Under the pieces are notes generated by a model. That model was not told where the DNA came from and did no database searches. It saw only the letters and a program-made list of their open reading frames with translations. A stretch of DNA of 7,044 nucleotides, from NCBI GenBank assembly GCA_013817135.1, contig JACDDF010000110.1:1-7044 (forward strand). The letters run 5' to 3'. This DNA comes from Nitrospirales bacterium (GTDB lineage: Bacteria > Nitrospirota > Nitrospiria > Nitrospirales > UBA8639). Position 1 is the first letter of the stretch. Every line of letters starts with the position of its first letter. Below, piece by piece: positions 1 to 6,970 of the stretch. The translations under genes were made by a program, and so were the position numbers.

Positions 1-1180
1 GTGATTGAATGGATGGAAATACCTGGTCTTCGGCTTCTTCATTCCCATAGACAAATTCTGTCAACCCTTTGATTAATGATTGCCCCACACGAAGATTTCC
101 GGCAATAGGTTTGGCTTTGAGAAAGGCCAGGCGTTCCCAGGTTCGGCCTCGACCCGCGTAATAATGAAGCGCGTCCTCCAGGGACGAGGCCAACGGTCCG
201 ACCATCCCTTCCGGACGGAGCCGTAGATCGACCCGAAACAAGGCGCCTTCGGCTGTTGGCGCCGTCAAGACCGCCGTGAGTTCCCTGGCCAGGGTTTCAC
301 AATACAGCACACGAGCAATACTGGTTTGTCCCTTCCCCGCTTTCGTCTTCCCTTCGGGAGCATGGTACACATAAATGAGATCGACATCCGAGCTGTAATT
401 AAGCTCCCAGCCTCCGAGTTTCCCCATGGCCAGCACGGAGAAACCGTCCGCCTTTTTCCCGGTCGATACCCCCACTCCAAAATCACCAAACCGCTGGGTT
501 AACTCCTCGTTCACCAGTTCATAGACTGCCTGAATGACTACTGAGGCGAGATCCGACAAGACGGTATAGGTTTCTACGGGCGTGGCTATGCTCAATAAAT
601 CGCGAATTCCGATTCGGAGCATTTCTCGCCGCTTCATCCGTCGTAACGCTTCGCATTTCCCCTCAAAACTCGTCACCGTACCGAGGGCAGCCTGCACGTT
701 GGCCTCAAGAGCACTCCGCGTCATCCGCCGTCGCAGGATCCCATCATCTTCAATCCAATACACTAATAATGGATCACGGATAAACGTTTGCGCCATGGCC
801 GGACTATTTCCGAATGCCGCTCCCAACACTTCGACCACATGCGGGACCATCGCTAAATATTGAAATAGTTGGAGCCGTTGAATACCGGAGTCGACATAGC
901 GTTCCCATTCATTCATGGCCTGATCCGGATCGGCCGTACGCGCAACGCTGCGTAACACGGCAGGCAGAATGGTCGCCAGGGCTTTCCGGGTGACCGGGTC
1001 CCCGGCCATAGCCTGAAGATTATGGTCGGCTCGTTCCCACTCCTGTAGGCCATAGGCCTGAAGGATCCGGGCGACATCTTGCGTGATAAGTCCTGAAGCC
1101 AGGAGTAAAGGCGTGGGATCGGGAAGGCAAGCAGCCGGAGGATCACCCTCAGAAGCTGCATGTGGTTTAAAAGCGGTCAT
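1..1180 (-). CDS. glnE: GlnE, glutamine synthetase adenylyltransferase/deadenylylase (N-terminal part, cut by left edge)
   Basis: GlnE attaches AMP to, and removes it from, the regulatory tyrosine of glutamine synthetase in the cytoplasm, in response to PII and glutamine. Reading the minus strand from ATG 1180 gives 393 uninterrupted codons to the edge. Residues about 100-200 form the helical lead-in typical of GlnE, including FIRDPLLVYWIEDD near 133 and RRMKRREMLRIGIRDLL near 180-195. The nucleotidyltransferase core follows: GKLGG at 253-257, then SSDVDLIY with metal-binding Asp265 and Asp267. The RVDLRLRP motif at 316-323 supplies the third acidic residue, Asp318. The ELNxSSDxDLI form resembles the N-terminal deadenylylase half of E. 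coli GlnE, so a second half of several hundred residues should lie beyond the left edge. The start was chosen because a perfect TATAAT lies 13 bases upstream and no in-frame start precedes it closely; there is no Shine-Dalgarno, consistent with a near-leaderless mRNA. It is divergent from a second GlnE-type gene and near glnA, its expected substrate. Family assignment is firm; whether the full protein has both halves cannot be seen. Confidence 0.93.
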   Translation of the reverse strand, partial: MTAFKPHAASEGDPPAACLPDPTPLLLASGLITQDVARILQAYGLQEWERADHNLQAMAGDPVTRKALATILPAVLRSVARTADPDQAMNEWERYVDSGIQRLQLFQYLAMVPHVVEVLGAAFGNSPAMAQTFIRDPLLVYWIEDDGILRRRMTRSALEANVQAALGTVTSFEGKCEALRRMKRREMLRIGIRDLLSIATPVETYTVLSDLASVVIQAVYELVNEELTQRFGDFGVGVSTGKKADGFSVLAMGKLGGWELNYSSDVDLIYVYHAPEGKTKAGKGQTSIARVLYCETLARELTAVLTAPTAEGALFRVDLRLRPEGMVGPLASSLEDALHYYAGRGRTWERLAFLKAKPIAGNLRVGQSLIKGLTEFVYGNEEAEDQVFPSIQS

Positions 1181-1193
1181 CGTGAAGAGGAAA

Positions 1194-1222
1194 ATTATAC
1201 GGGAGCGCGTCCGGCCTTACAA
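1194..1222 (-). promoter_or_regulatory. Predicted sigma70-type promoter of glnE
   Basis: On the minus strand, a -35 TTGTAA (1222-1217, four of six consensus bases) is followed by a 17-base spacer and a perfect -10 TATAAT (1199-1194). Transcription would begin around 1183-1188, leaving a leader of at most about 8 bases before ATG 1180. The -35 hexamer is the same six base pairs used by the divergent promoter. Prediction by inspection only. Confidence 0.6.
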
Positions 1223-1244
1223 TGCAACAATTTTTCAGTATACT
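1217..1244 (+). promoter_or_regulatory. Predicted sigma70-type promoter of the ACT-GlnE gene
   Basis: On the plus strand, a weak -35 TTACAA (1217-1222, three of six) is followed by a 16-base spacer and a good -10 TATACT (1239-1244, five of six). A start site 7 bases after the -10 falls on A1252, the first base of an in-frame ATG, so the mRNA would be leaderless. The -35 lies over the -35 of the glnE promoter on the other strand, so the two polymerases could not occupy both at once. Confidence 0.5.
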
Positions 1245-1251
1245 CGGCACC

Positions 1252-3498
1252 ATGAACGAATCAGAGCGGATCCAGTCTTATCAGACTCAATGTCCTGATC
1301 TTCGTCCGGCGTTGATCAGAGATTTTGTCCAGCAGATGGACCCGGATTATTTTGAAAGCTTTCCTCCCGCCGCGATCCTGGAACATGTAGCCCTGGCGAA
1401 CCAGCTCACGTTTGAACGACCCTGTGCTATCTCGATCCGGACACTGCCCACTCGTCAATTTCAACTGACTCTGGTGGGTTACGATTATTTTTCGGAGTTT
1501 GCCACATTCTGTGGCGTCTTATCTTCATTTGGGCTGGATATTCGAGAGGCCACGATTTTCACGTCTTTAGAAAAAATGGCTCCAACTCTTTCATCAACAC
1601 CATCATTGCAAGGCCTTACATCCACGGGCACTTCCTCACAAGCGACTCGAGGGTTGACCCGGAAAATTGTCGTGGATGTCTTTCATGTTCAGGCTCTTGA
1701 AGATCTGAAATTTGCCAAACCCGAACAACGTGAGTTTCAAGAGATGGTGACGGCCCTTCTCATCCTTCTTCAAAAGAATCAGATCCGGCAAGCCCGTCGA
1801 CAGGTGAATCGCCGGCTCATTGAGAATTTAGAGAACATGCGTCAAAAACCGACGGAGATGGTCCATCCGGTCCACATCACGTTTTCCAACCCGCGCGGCA
1901 GTCATGAAACCATTCTGGATATTAGCTCAACCGATACGCCGGCATTTTTGTACACCTTTGCCAATGCCCTGGCCATGCGCGGCATCTATATTGTGAAAGC
2001 CAAGATTGAAGTCGCCAACCACCGCGTCCGGAACCGGCTCTATGTCCGCGGACGTCAGGGTGGAAAAATTGAGGGAAAAGGCGAACAACAGGAACTGCGA
2101 ACGGCGGCCACCTTACTCAAAGAATTCACCCATTATCTGAGATGGGCACCGGACCCCGGGAAAGCGCTCGATCATTTTGATCAATTCCTGGATCTATGGT
2201 TAGAGCAGGCGAATACCCCCTCGCATCTTACCAAGCTAAGCCAGGCTTCCACTCTGGAACGACTGGCTCAACTCTTTGGCAGCAGTGATTACCTGTGGGA
2301 GGATTTACTCCGTCGGCAGCATGACAATTTGTTGCCCATGATGAATCAATACCAAAAAGGCCCCCTGATTCGATCAAAATCTGTGCTCAGCAAAGCCATA
2401 GAGCCGTTATTGCTTAAAGCCAAAACTCCTGTCGACAAAAAACAGCGTTTGAATCAATGGAAAGACGAAGAGCTGTTCCGAATCGACATGCGTCATCTCC
2501 TGGAAAATAGTCCACTCCCCGACTTTTCCATGGCCCTGACCAATCTCGCTGATGTCATTCTCAACCAGGCCCTTCTGCATTCTCAACAAGCGATCAATCC
2601 GAAAGCCTCCCTCACCACTCCTCCTTCGATGGCGATTTTTGGATTAGGAAAACTCGGAGGCGGCGAATTAGGGTATGCCTCAGATATCGAGATTCTGTTC
2701 GTCTATCAAATGCCCGGCAAACCTTCGCGAGGCCAGACGACTCAGGAATTTTCAGATTATTTTGAACGCTGGGCGCAGGAATTTCTCCAATGGATTGAAG
2801 CCAAGCAGGAAGGCATTTTTCACCTGGATACCCGGTTGCGCCCCCATGGAGAAAAAGGCCTCCTCGCCAATTCCCTCCACGAGATTCAGCGCTATTATGC
2901 GCCACAGGGTGGAGCCGCTCCTTTTGAACGACAGGCGTTACTCAAGCTCCGTTTTCTTGCTGGAAATCGTGCGGTGGGAAAAGCCGTTGAACACCATCGT
3001 GACCAATTTGTCTATGCCCCAGACCCATGGGATCTTCAGACGGCCCTCCATCTTCGTGAACGTCAAATCAAAGAGTTGGTCCAGCCGGGAACCACGCATG
3101 TCAAATACGGAGCCGGTGGCCTGCTTGATGTGGAGTATACCGTGCAATATCTTCAACTCATGCACGGGCACGACCATCCTTCCATTCGCACGCCCAATAC
3201 GATTGAGGCCATCGATCACCTGAGCGGGGAAGGCCTGTTCACTCTTGAAGACGGGGCTCAGCTCAAAGACGATTACCTGTATTTTCGACAACTCATTGAC
3301 GGACTTCGAATAGTCCGTGGCCATGCCCAGGATCTGGTCCTGCCACCATCCGGTTCTGATGAAATGGTTTTTTTAGCTCGCCGGCTCGGGATGCTCACCA
3401 CAAACTGGCTTCAGGGAGCCGACGATCTGGAGCATGCCATTCACACCAGAATGACGAAAATTCGCAAACAATTCCTTCAACGGTTTCCCAAACAGTAA
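1252..3498 (+). CDS. GlnE-type nucleotidyltransferase with N-terminal tandem ACT domains (GlnD-sensor/GlnE-catalytic chimera)
   Basis: Likely a cytoplasmic enzyme that adds or removes AMP on glutamine synthetase; the substrate is inferred from family and neighbourhood. Numbered from ATG 1252 (748 aa): residues about 60-147 form a first ACT-like unit ending in VVDVFHVQ, as in GlnD ACT domains. Residues about 205-275 form a second unit (VHITFSNP, then TILDISSTDTPAFLYTFANAL, GIYIVKAKI and GGKI). Residues about 330-590 form the GlnE core, with helical lead-in, GKLGG (466-470), SDIE (Asp478, Glu480) and DTRLRP (526-531). KYGAGGLLDVEY (618-629) opens the C-terminal helical domain shared by GlnE and GlnD. 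Only one catalytic unit is present, against two in classical GlnE of about 950 residues. The ELGYxSD form resembles the adenylyltransferase half of E. coli GlnE; the usual Asp-x-Asp is Asp-x-Glu. An ATG at 1222 would add 10 residues, but it has no properly spaced Shine-Dalgarno and lies upstream of the predicted -10. It is divergent from glnE and convergent with glnA. Domain calls are strong; direct glutamine sensing is inference. Confidence 0.9.
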   Translation: MNESERIQSYQTQCPDLRPALIRDFVQQMDPDYFESFPPAAILEHVALANQLTFERPCAISIRTLPTRQFQLTLVGYDYFSEFATFCGVLSSFGLDIREATIFTSLEKMAPTLSSTPSLQGLTSTGTSSQATRGLTRKIVVDVFHVQALEDLKFAKPEQREFQEMVTALLILLQKNQIRQARRQVNRRLIENLENMRQKPTEMVHPVHITFSNPRGSHETILDISSTDTPAFLYTFANALAMRGIYIVKAKIEVANHRVRNRLYVRGRQGGKIEGKGEQQELRTAATLLKEFTHYLRWAPDPGKALDHFDQFLDLWLEQANTPSHLTKLSQASTLERLAQLFGSSDYLWEDLLRRQHDNLLPMMNQYQKGPLIRSKSVLSKAIEPLLLKAKTPVDKKQRLNQWKDEELFRIDMRHLLENSPLPDFSMALTNLADVILNQALLHSQQAINPKASLTTPPSMAIFGLGKLGGGELGYASDIEILFVYQMPGKPSRGQTTQEFSDYFERWAQEFLQWIEAKQEGIFHLDTRLRPHGEKGLLANSLHEIQRYYAPQGGAAPFERQALLKLRFLAGNRAVGKAVEHHRDQFVYAPDPWDLQTALHLRERQIKELVQPGTTHVKYGAGGLLDVEYTVQYLQLMHGHDHPSIRTPNTIEAIDHLSGEGLFTLEDGAQLKDDYLYFRQLIDGLRIVRGHAQDLVLPPSGSDEMVFLARRLGMLTTNWLQGADDLEHAIHTRMTKIRKQFLQRFPKQ

Positions 3499-3605: not shown

Positions 3606-5015
3606 TTAACAATCATAGTACATGAAATATTCATACGGGTGTGGCCTGACTCGAATCGCATCGATTTCATTGGTCCGTTTATGGGCAATCCAGGCTTCAA
3701 GCAGGTCCTCGGAAAACACTCCGCCTTTCAAGAGAAATTCATGGTCATCCTCAAGAGCCTTTAAGGCCTGTTCCAGACTCGACGGCAATGAGGGAATATT
3801 TCCTAATTCCTCCGGCTCTAAGTCATAGAGATTCTTATCCATGGCCTCGCCCGGATGAATTTTATTTTGAATCCCGTCTAACCCGGCCATGAGCATGGCA
3901 CTGAAGGCCAAATACGGATTACACGAGGGATCAGGGAACCGGACCTCAATGCGTTTGGCCTTGGGACTCGGCGAGTACATGGGAATCCGGATGCCCGCCG
4001 ATCGATTCCGGCTGGAATAGGCGAGCAACACCGGTGCTTCAAAGCCCGGGGTCAGCCGTTTGTAGGAATTCGTAATCGGGTTGGTGAGCGCGGCTAACGC
4101 CGGACCATGTTTAAGGATCCCGCCGATATAATACAAGCACATCTGCGAGACACCCGCATATTCCTTTCCCGCAAACAATGGCTTCCCGTCTTTCCAGATA
4201 CTCTGATGGGTATGCATCCCGGTGCCATTATCTCCATAGAGCGGCTTGGGCATAAAGGTCACGGTTTTGTTATGGCGACGCGCGACATTGCGCACAATAT
4301 ATTTGTACATCATCATCTGATCGGCCATCTTGACCATGGTATCGAATCGAAGGTCGATTTCGGCCTGGCCTCCGGTGGCCACTTCATGATGATGTTTCTC
4401 CACCTTGATCCCGGCTTTTTCCATTTCCCGGCACATCTCTGACCGGATATCCTGTTGCGAGTCGACAGGGGCCACGGGAAAATAGCCCTCCTTATGACGC
4501 GGTCGAGACCCGAGGTTCTCTCCGTCTTTTCCGGAATTCCAGATGCCCTCTTCCGAGTCGACAAAGTAGTAACTGGAGTGACTGTTTTGATCGAACGACA
4601 CATGGTCAAAAATAAAAAATTCGGCTTCAGGACCCCAATAGGAAACATCCCCGATTTTGGTGCTCTTGAGATATTGCTCCGCGCGAAGGGCCACTCCGCG
4701 GGGATCCCGCTCATAGACGGTTCGGGTAATGGGATCTTGCACATCCCCCACAATGCTTAACGTCGGAATCTCCATGAACGGATCCATGCAGGCGGTATTC
4801 GGATCAGGGACGATCAACATGTCACTATTTTGGATCGCACGCCACCCCCGCATTGACGATCCATCAAATCCAGAGCCTTCTTTAAAGAGATCCAACGTCA
4901 ACTCTGACGTAGGAATCGAAAAATGCTGCCAGGTCCCCAGCAGGTCGACAAACTTGACGTCAACCATTTCTACCTTGTTCTTTTTCGCATAATCCAACAC
5001 TTCTTTCGCGGTCAT
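3606..5015 (-). CDS. glnA: Type I glutamine synthetase (GlnA)
   Basis: Catalyses ATP-dependent joining of ammonia to glutamate to give glutamine, the entry point of ammonium into metabolism; the family forms cytoplasmic dodecamers. The 469-aa length equals that of E. coli GlnA. Visible motifs: FDGSSMRGW at 50-58 (N-terminal active-site segment), [10 protein letters not shown] at 128-137 (metal-binding glutamates), [17 protein letters not shown] near 208-224 (further metal ligands) and NGTGMHTH at 263-270. [17 protein letters not shown] at 312-328 carries the flap glutamate, [10 protein letters not shown] is at 336-345, and [16 protein letters not shown] starts at 355. [10 protein letters not shown] places Tyr397 exactly where GlnE adenylylates this enzyme type, so it should be a substrate of the GlnE-type enzymes to the left. 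The start is supported by a full AAGGAGGT Shine-Dalgarno six bases upstream. It lies 142 bases after amtB on the same strand and is convergent with the ACT-GlnE gene. Confidence 0.98.
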
Positions 5016-5157: not shown

Positions 5158-6471
5158 TTAGGAATAGGCTCGCTCATTATGTTGACTAAGATCCAACCCC
5201 ATTTCCTCGTCTTGGGCGGAGACTCTCAGCCCTACCGTCACATCCACGATTTTAAGAATGAGATAGGTTCCGATGACAGAAAAGGTCAAGGTTACCAAAG
5301 CCAATACGACTTGTATACCGAACTGTTCGGCGTTTCCGAAAAACAAACCCTGCGCCCCGATTGAGGCAAACAACCCTGTCGCTAAGATGCCCATAAATCC
5401 GCCCACGCCATGAATACCCACGACATCAAGCGAATCATCATAGCCAAGCCGCATTTTCCACACGACCGCAACATAACAGACGGTGCCTGCAACCAGCCCA
5501 ATCAAGAGGGCTGACATCGGCCCGATAAATCCTGCAGCCGGAGTCACCGTGGCCAAACCCGCGACCACCCCACTGGCGACCCCTAACACGGTCGGTTTAC
5601 CCCTGTGTACCCATTCAGCCACCATCCAGCTTAGTCCCCCTGCCGACGCGGCCGTGTGCGTGGCGAGAAACGCGGCCGCGGCCACACCATTGGCTCCTAG
5701 CGCACTCCCCGCGTTAAAGCCGAACCACCCGAACCAGAGAAGTCCTGCTCCCAGAATGGTCATCGGCAAATCATGTGGGGGCATCGGGTCTGTCCCAAAC
5801 CCCTTGCGCTTCCCAAGCATCACGGCACAGACCAACGCCCCGAACCCTGAAGAGATGTGGACGACCGCGCCACCGGCAAAATCCAAGGCTCCAAGCTTGG
5901 CTAACCACCCTCCACCCCACACCCAATGCGCCAACGGGGTATAAATCAGGAGAGACCATAAGACGGCAAACAACAATAAGGCTTTAAAATTCATTCGCTC
6001 GGCCACGCTGCCGGTAATCAGCGCCACGGTGATGGCGGCAAACATGAGCTGGAAGAGCATAAAGACTTGATGGGGCACCGTCGACGCATAAATCGGACTC
6101 GGATCCAACCCCACACCATTCAGACCCACCCATTCCAGGCCGCCGATTAACCCTCCGACATCAGGACCGAAGGCTAAACTGTATCCGCACAGCACCCAAA
6201 TCAGGCTGATTAAACAAAGAATCACCATCGTATGCATGATGGTCCCGAGCACATTTTTTTTGCGAACCAGCCCGCCATAAAATAAGGCCAGTCCAGGAAG
6301 CGTCATACACAACACCAGCGCCGAAGACATTAAGAGCCAGGCCGTATCCCCCGTATCGATTTTAGGCAAACCCTCTTCACCTGCCCAAACAGCAAATGGC
6401 TGACTCAGACTCATCCATAGCCCCAGTCCGGTCAACCTTCCCGGCGTTAAGCGTGGAACGAACAGATTCAT
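5158..6471 (-). CDS. amtB: Ammonium transporter AmtB
   Basis: Inner-membrane trimeric channel-type transporter for ammonium. Starting at ATG 6471 it has 437 aa. An upstream in-frame ATG at 6492 is less likely because the AGGAGGGG ribosome site (6481-6474) lies directly before 6471. Residues about 1-30 look like a cleavable signal peptide (basic MNLFVPRL, hydrophobic stretch, then PFAVWA before GEE), as in E. coli AmtB. About eleven hydrophobic segments follow. Signature positions of E. coli AmtB are all present: paired Phe in FQLMF (Phe103/Phe107), Trp148 in VWGGG, Asp160 and His168 in LDFAGGAVVH, Phe215 and Ser219 in GWFGFNAGS, and His318 in GIHGVGG. The cytoplasmic tail ends LDLSQHNERAYS and should meet the PII T-loop. 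It is 44 bases after glnB, so the two are very probably co-transcribed, as in glnK-amtB operons. Confidence 0.97.
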   Translation of the reverse strand: MNLFVPRLTPGRLTGLGLWMSLSQPFAVWAGEEGLPKIDTGDTAWLLMSSALVLCMTLPGLALFYGGLVRKKNVLGTIMHTMVILCLISLIWVLCGYSLAFGPDVGGLIGGLEWVGLNGVGLDPSPIYASTVPHQVFMLFQLMFAAITVALITGSVAERMNFKALLLFAVLWSLLIYTPLAHWVWGGGWLAKLGALDFAGGAVVHISSGFGALVCAVMLGKRKGFGTDPMPPHDLPMTILGAGLLWFGWFGFNAGSALGANGVAAAAFLATHTAASAGGLSWMVAEWVHRGKPTVLGVASGVVAGLATVTPAAGFIGPMSALLIGLVAGTVCYVAVVWKMRLGYDDSLDVVGIHGVGGFMGILATGLFASIGAQGLFFGNAEQFGIQVVLALVTLTFSVIGTYLILKIVDVTVGLRVSAQDEEMGLDLSQHNERAYS

Positions 6472-6473
6472 TT

Positions 6474-6481
6474 CCCCTCCT
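6474..6481 (-). promoter_or_regulatory. Ribosome binding site that fixes the amtB start
   Basis: Minus-strand AGGAGGGG ends two bases before ATG 6471, a short but workable spacing from its GGAGG core. It lies within the seven codons that would be added by the upstream ATG at 6492, so it favours the shorter protein. Confidence 0.7.
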
Positions 6482-6515
6482 CGAGTAAACAAGTGGTGTG
6501 GTAGGGTGGCAATGG

Positions 6516-6970
<455 letters not shown>

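Follow-up and report, generated by a model that had tools for sequence, protein, structure and literature searches.

A predicted split GlnE carrying a GlnD-related sensor module on one arm in Nitrospira-type bacteria

The GlnD-PII-GlnE cascade is a textbook example of enzyme regulation by covalent modification. GlnE elsewhere is a two-headed enzyme that adds an adenylyl off-tag to glutamine synthetase (GS) and removes it again, and the N-terminal half of the E. coli protein is the one that deadenylylates. By the title of structure 3k7d, the C-terminal half is the adenylylation domain. We analyzed a 7,044-nucleotide stretch of a Nitrospirales bacterium, referred to below as the window, which is one entire contig (G000:C357) of a genome that is 85% complete. 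It contains a gene, here called ACT-GlnE, in which a GlnD-type tandem ACT module is fused to a single GlnE unit and, as its divergent neighbor, a companion gene encoding a second GlnE unit. Judged from sequence, GlnE is split class-wide in Nitrospira-type bacteria, with a sensor derived from GlnD attached to one of the arms, and this constitutes a variant of the known GlnE type. Neither a GlnE-ACT fusion nor a GlnE split was found described in the open-access literature searched. The two genes and the domains of ACT-GlnE are located as follows.

1222..3498, plus strand: ACT-GlnE (GlnD-type sensor module and single GlnE unit), 758 amino acids, or 748 if the start is at 1252.
1258..2145, plus strand: GlnD-like regulatory module, residues ~13-308 (GlnD models, profile-profile comparison, AlphaFold2, structure matches).
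2257..2991, plus strand: GlnE nucleotidyltransferase unit, residues 346-590 (PF03710, alignment columns).
3094..3474, plus strand: helical C-terminal domain of the GlnD_UR_UTase type, residues 625-751 (PF08335).
2..1180, minus strand: companion, predicted GlnE half of the N-type (deadenylylase-type), truncated at the contig end (PF03710 E 1.3e-60, trees, half-profiles, locus map).

The fusion proposed in a first-pass annotation, joining a GlnD-type tandem ACT to one GlnE unit plus the helical domain, was borne out. Pfam identified one GlnE unit (PF03710, E 2e-37) and one GlnD_UR_UTase domain (PF08335, E 1.8e-11) in ACT-GlnE; the uridylyltransferase and HD domains of GlnD were not found by Pfam. 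GlnD models matched residues 32-294, their best stretch being the ACT part only, and a profile-profile comparison of the first 320 residues with GlnD aligned the linker helices, ACT1, and ACT2 (probability 99.5, E 3e-23), which answers the annotation's suggested comparison with GlnD ACT pairs. Structure prediction of the N-terminal part, which it had also suggested, gave two ACT-like units (AlphaFold2, 71 homologues, predicted local distance difference test score 85.7): the linker helices are followed by ACT1 at residues ~68-205, with a low-confidence insert at 119-143, and ACT2 at ~217-300. In structure comparison, these units matched the tandem-ACT regions of aspartate kinase and threonine deaminase. 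The sensor module is thus, by its sequence, kin of the whole GlnD regulatory end. GlnD itself (the PII uridylyltransferase/uridylyl-removing enzyme) shares the linker helices and tandem ACT, which are N-terminal in ACT-GlnE; unlike in GlnD, the module is followed by a GlnE unit and then the helical domain. Plant ACR11, a tandem-ACT protein linked to chloroplast GS (PMC3173338), likewise represents a GlnD-related ACT pair tied to GS, but it has no catalytic domain; the Pfam model ACT_ACR9_3rd gave a sub-threshold match in 5 of 6 relatives scanned. The large 180-kDa glutamate dehydrogenase of Mycobacterium smegmatis (9hv0, 7jsr) differs in its catalysis, and sequence kinship with it was rejected, the ACT-GlnE family profile giving no match at E values up to 1.

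ACT-GlnE is, however, not a GlnE relative that stands alone: it forms one arm of a split GlnE, and the annotation had missed the other arm, encoded at 2..1180 on the minus strand. Intact relatives of the companion are single-unit proteins, mostly of ~530-645 amino acids, and an odd stand-alone paralogue beside an intact classical GlnE was rejected on this ground. Of 22 mapped loci of the window's class, 21 had the two genes side by side (17 divergent, 4 convergent), and the contig of the 22nd stops soon after ACT-GlnE. Within the window's family, 41 genomes had a strong ACT-GlnE match; the pair was adjacent in 38 of these, and in the remaining three ACT-GlnE lay at a contig end. Strong GlnE-domain matches (E < 1e-30) occurred in 104 of 116 class genomes. 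Of 33 genomes chosen outside the class but within the same phylum, 32 encoded GlnE in a single frame of 872-1311 codons; in the remaining one, it was cut. Ten named relatives of the window were all Nitrospirota metagenome-assembled genomes (MAGs), chiefly Nitrospirales. As the annotation had anticipated, relatives carry generic names: "hypothetical protein", "glutamate-ammonia-ligase adenylyltransferase", and "[protein-PII] uridylyltransferase family protein" were frequent among the matches listed.

Compared with the bifunctional GlnE of E. coli (1v4a, 3k7d), the catalytic unit and helical domain (PF03710, PF08335) are conserved and both halves are present across the pair; however, the two halves form one chain there and are encoded by two genes of one unit each here. 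The third active-site aspartate is kept in ACT-GlnE, where D488, E490, and D536 were invariant in 71/71 homologues. The ACT-bearing arm, besides its added sensor module, differs in having the motif SDxE (71/71; window 2683-2691) instead of the usual SDxD, which was present in every classical half and companion caught by the motif pattern. Since the exchanged residue is still acidic, the ACT-GlnE unit may be active.

The division of labor between the arms was examined with trees and profiles. In the careful tree (67 rows, without seven classical GlnE proteins for reasons of size and without Halomonas, whose recorded gene has a broken reading frame), the companions clustered together (100/99) within the N-half side (97/89), where one actinobacterial C-half was also placed, and ACT-GlnE formed another group (100/100) placed between the N- and C-halves. 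A quick tree (85 rows) gave the same split, with the companions joining the N-halves at a support of 99. Profiles of the two halves, from which Halomonas and Nonomuraea were excluded and whose leave-one-out controls were correct in 20/20 cases, scored 20 of 21 companions higher for N (all but the truncated copy in the window) and 23/23 ACT-GlnE proteins higher for C, with margins of only 0.5-56 bits. ACT-GlnE also showed the C-half state at R612 (14/14), D636 (13/14), R696 (14/14), and E530 (13/14), and the A1 profile, compared with solved structures, leaned to the C-half (186 vs 174 bits). The NCBIfam stretches disagreed on the half assignment. There is good support for the companion as the putative deadenylylase-type arm and moderate, mixed support for ACT-GlnE as the putative adenylylase-type arm. 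An origin of ACT-GlnE as a recent duplicate of the companion is disfavored, because a topology uniting ACT-GlnE and companion in one clade had an approximately unbiased test p-value (p-AU) of 0.019.

In one genus of the class, g11, the GlnD model found no GlnD in 27 of 35 genomes (G074, G083, G090, and 24 more), in which matches were limited to the ACT part of ACT-GlnE; a close GlnD query reconfirmed the absence in 26 of the 27 and detected GlnD in both positive controls. Among the other 81 genomes of the class, 79 had GlnD (E <= 1e-100). The two without a match were G225 and the incomplete genome of the window itself; G047 and G029, near-complete genomes from the window's genus, do carry GlnD. 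The gene order was glnB-glnD-glnA in the six GlnD-bearing genomes of g11's family examined for all three genes (G056, G102, G107, G130, G155, and G185), and glnB adjoined glnA, with a gap of 63-248 bases, in 26/26 GlnD-less genomes checked. Both arms were kept in 27/27 GlnD-less genomes, in two of them in fragments, which supports the conclusion that GlnD can be bypassed. Ammonia monooxygenase was found in 21/27 GlnD-less vs 2/8 GlnD-bearing genomes of the genus, so the loss of GlnD falls mostly in comammox-like genomes.

In the GlnD-less genomes, ACT2 and the catalytic core are constrained to about the same degree. Across 25 of the 27 GlnD-less ACT-GlnE genes, the fragmentary G150 and G293 being left out, the median ratio of nonsynonymous to synonymous substitution rates (dN/dS) was 0.045 in ACT2 and 0.037 in the catalytic core; the C-terminal domain had a median of 0.061, and the linker and ACT1 had medians of 0.117-0.128. 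The corresponding medians in 16 GlnD-bearing ACT-GlnE genes, a broader set, were 0.102, 0.115, 0.094, and 0.199-0.227. In both sets, dS approached saturation, and pairs whose dS could not be used were excluded.

The remainder of the window encodes three further nitrogen-related genes.

3606..5015, minus strand: glnA, type I GS with the adenylylation-site tyrosine (residue 397, NLYDL; TIGR00653, 672 bits).
5158..6492, minus strand: amt, ammonium transporter (TIGR00836).
6516..6863, minus strand: PII protein with Tyr51 (RGTEY, E. coli numbering; PF00543).

Because glnA, amt, and the PII gene are the next genes, GlnA is the likely substrate of the pair. Its site tyrosine was retained in 25 of 26 GlnD-less genomes, the other GlnA being cut; in one genome (G302), the pair was present but the GlnA-like match was only distant. 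PII kept Tyr51 in the window and in 26/26 GlnD-less genomes; no loss of this residue together with GlnD was seen. With PII and its Tyr51 retained, a bypass of PII, which the annotation had considered possible, is not supported.

Passages of PMC3173338 and PMC4285133 treat the GlnD regulatory module as a glutamine sensor, and the related module would likely let ACT-GlnE read glutamine directly, with glutamine as the presumed ligand of the ACT pair. We consider it fairly probable that the two genes form a split GlnE in which the sensor-bearing arm is predicted to adenylylate GlnA upon glutamine binding and the divergent neighbor to deadenylylate it. At high glutamine, the amino acid would be bound by the ACT pair, and the adenylyltransferase unit would then be freed or activated and inactivate GS; at low glutamine, the deadenylylase companion, probably still under PII control, would reactivate it. 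More tentatively, and somewhat short of an even chance, this would be a rewired GS switch with separate writer and eraser, in which the writer measures glutamine by a captured GlnD sensor and GlnD and PII uridylylation have become dispensable in a mostly comammox-like genus.

Several observations weigh against this interpretation. Amino-acid-binding ACT domains usually have a glycine in the beta1-alpha1 loop, and it is replaced in both ACT units (residue 91 is Ser in 61/71; residue 241 is Ala in 62/71 and Gly in 3/71); conserved residues of these loops are D88/Y89 and D238/A241. Scores of Pfam ACT models were under the cut-off. The GlnA tyrosine was also retained in 10/10 pair-less genomes; no co-loss with the pair was seen, and retention of either it or PII Tyr51 is no proof of the circuit. 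Finally, single-sequence and fold comparisons placed ACT-GlnE slightly closer to the N-terminal, deadenylylating half of E. coli GlnE.

The first two points, together with the preservation of PII Tyr51 wherever checked, would fit a real split GlnE whose ACT module binds another ligand or docks PII or GlnA instead of reading glutamine. We regard this as unlikely, though it deserves weight: the kinship is specifically to the GlnD module, ACT2 is under strong constraint in the GlnD-less genomes, and ACT1 of E. coli GlnD likewise has no loop glycine, which ACR11 keeps. The single-sequence and fold comparisons, and the C-half preference of the truncated window companion, would fit reversed arms, with the ACT-bearing protein removing adenosine monophosphate and the companion adding it, or single units that each do both; the grouping of companions with N-halves in both trees and in 20/21 profile comparisons, and the C-half leaning of ACT-GlnE in profiles and against structures, render this improbable. 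That ACT-GlnE substitutes for GlnD and modifies PII is very improbable, since, despite the GlnD-like sensor and the Tyr51 kept in genomes without GlnD, it occurs alongside GlnD in most class genomes, has a GlnE-type catalytic unit, and lies next to glnA in the window.

Under the favored reading of a split GlnE with a glutamine-sensing adenylylating arm, an ecologically important nitrifier class appears to have split GlnE and put a sensor on one arm, and one genus does without GlnD. The naturally separated arms are available for assay and offer a test of the need for GlnD and PII uridylylation; the assignment also improves nitrogen-control annotation for nitrite oxidizers and likely comammox bacteria.

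Three protein searches covered the best 120 each of 1823, 255, and 528 matches, so a wider spread of the fusion is possible. Among the matches listed, the single one outside Nitrospirota was an ACT-GlnE homologue on a 6.4 kb contig of a Blastocatellia MAG (P0228); it was nested inside the Nitrospiria ACT-GlnE group in the careful tree and represents either a transfer or a binning error. No plasmid record covered 80% of the ACT-GlnE query. At another locus (L004), a 1049-amino-acid open reading frame (308-3457) lies close to the pair and matched no Pfam model at E 0.001, and a PII gene flanked by two ammonium transporter genes (11933-15057) is located downstream of glnA.
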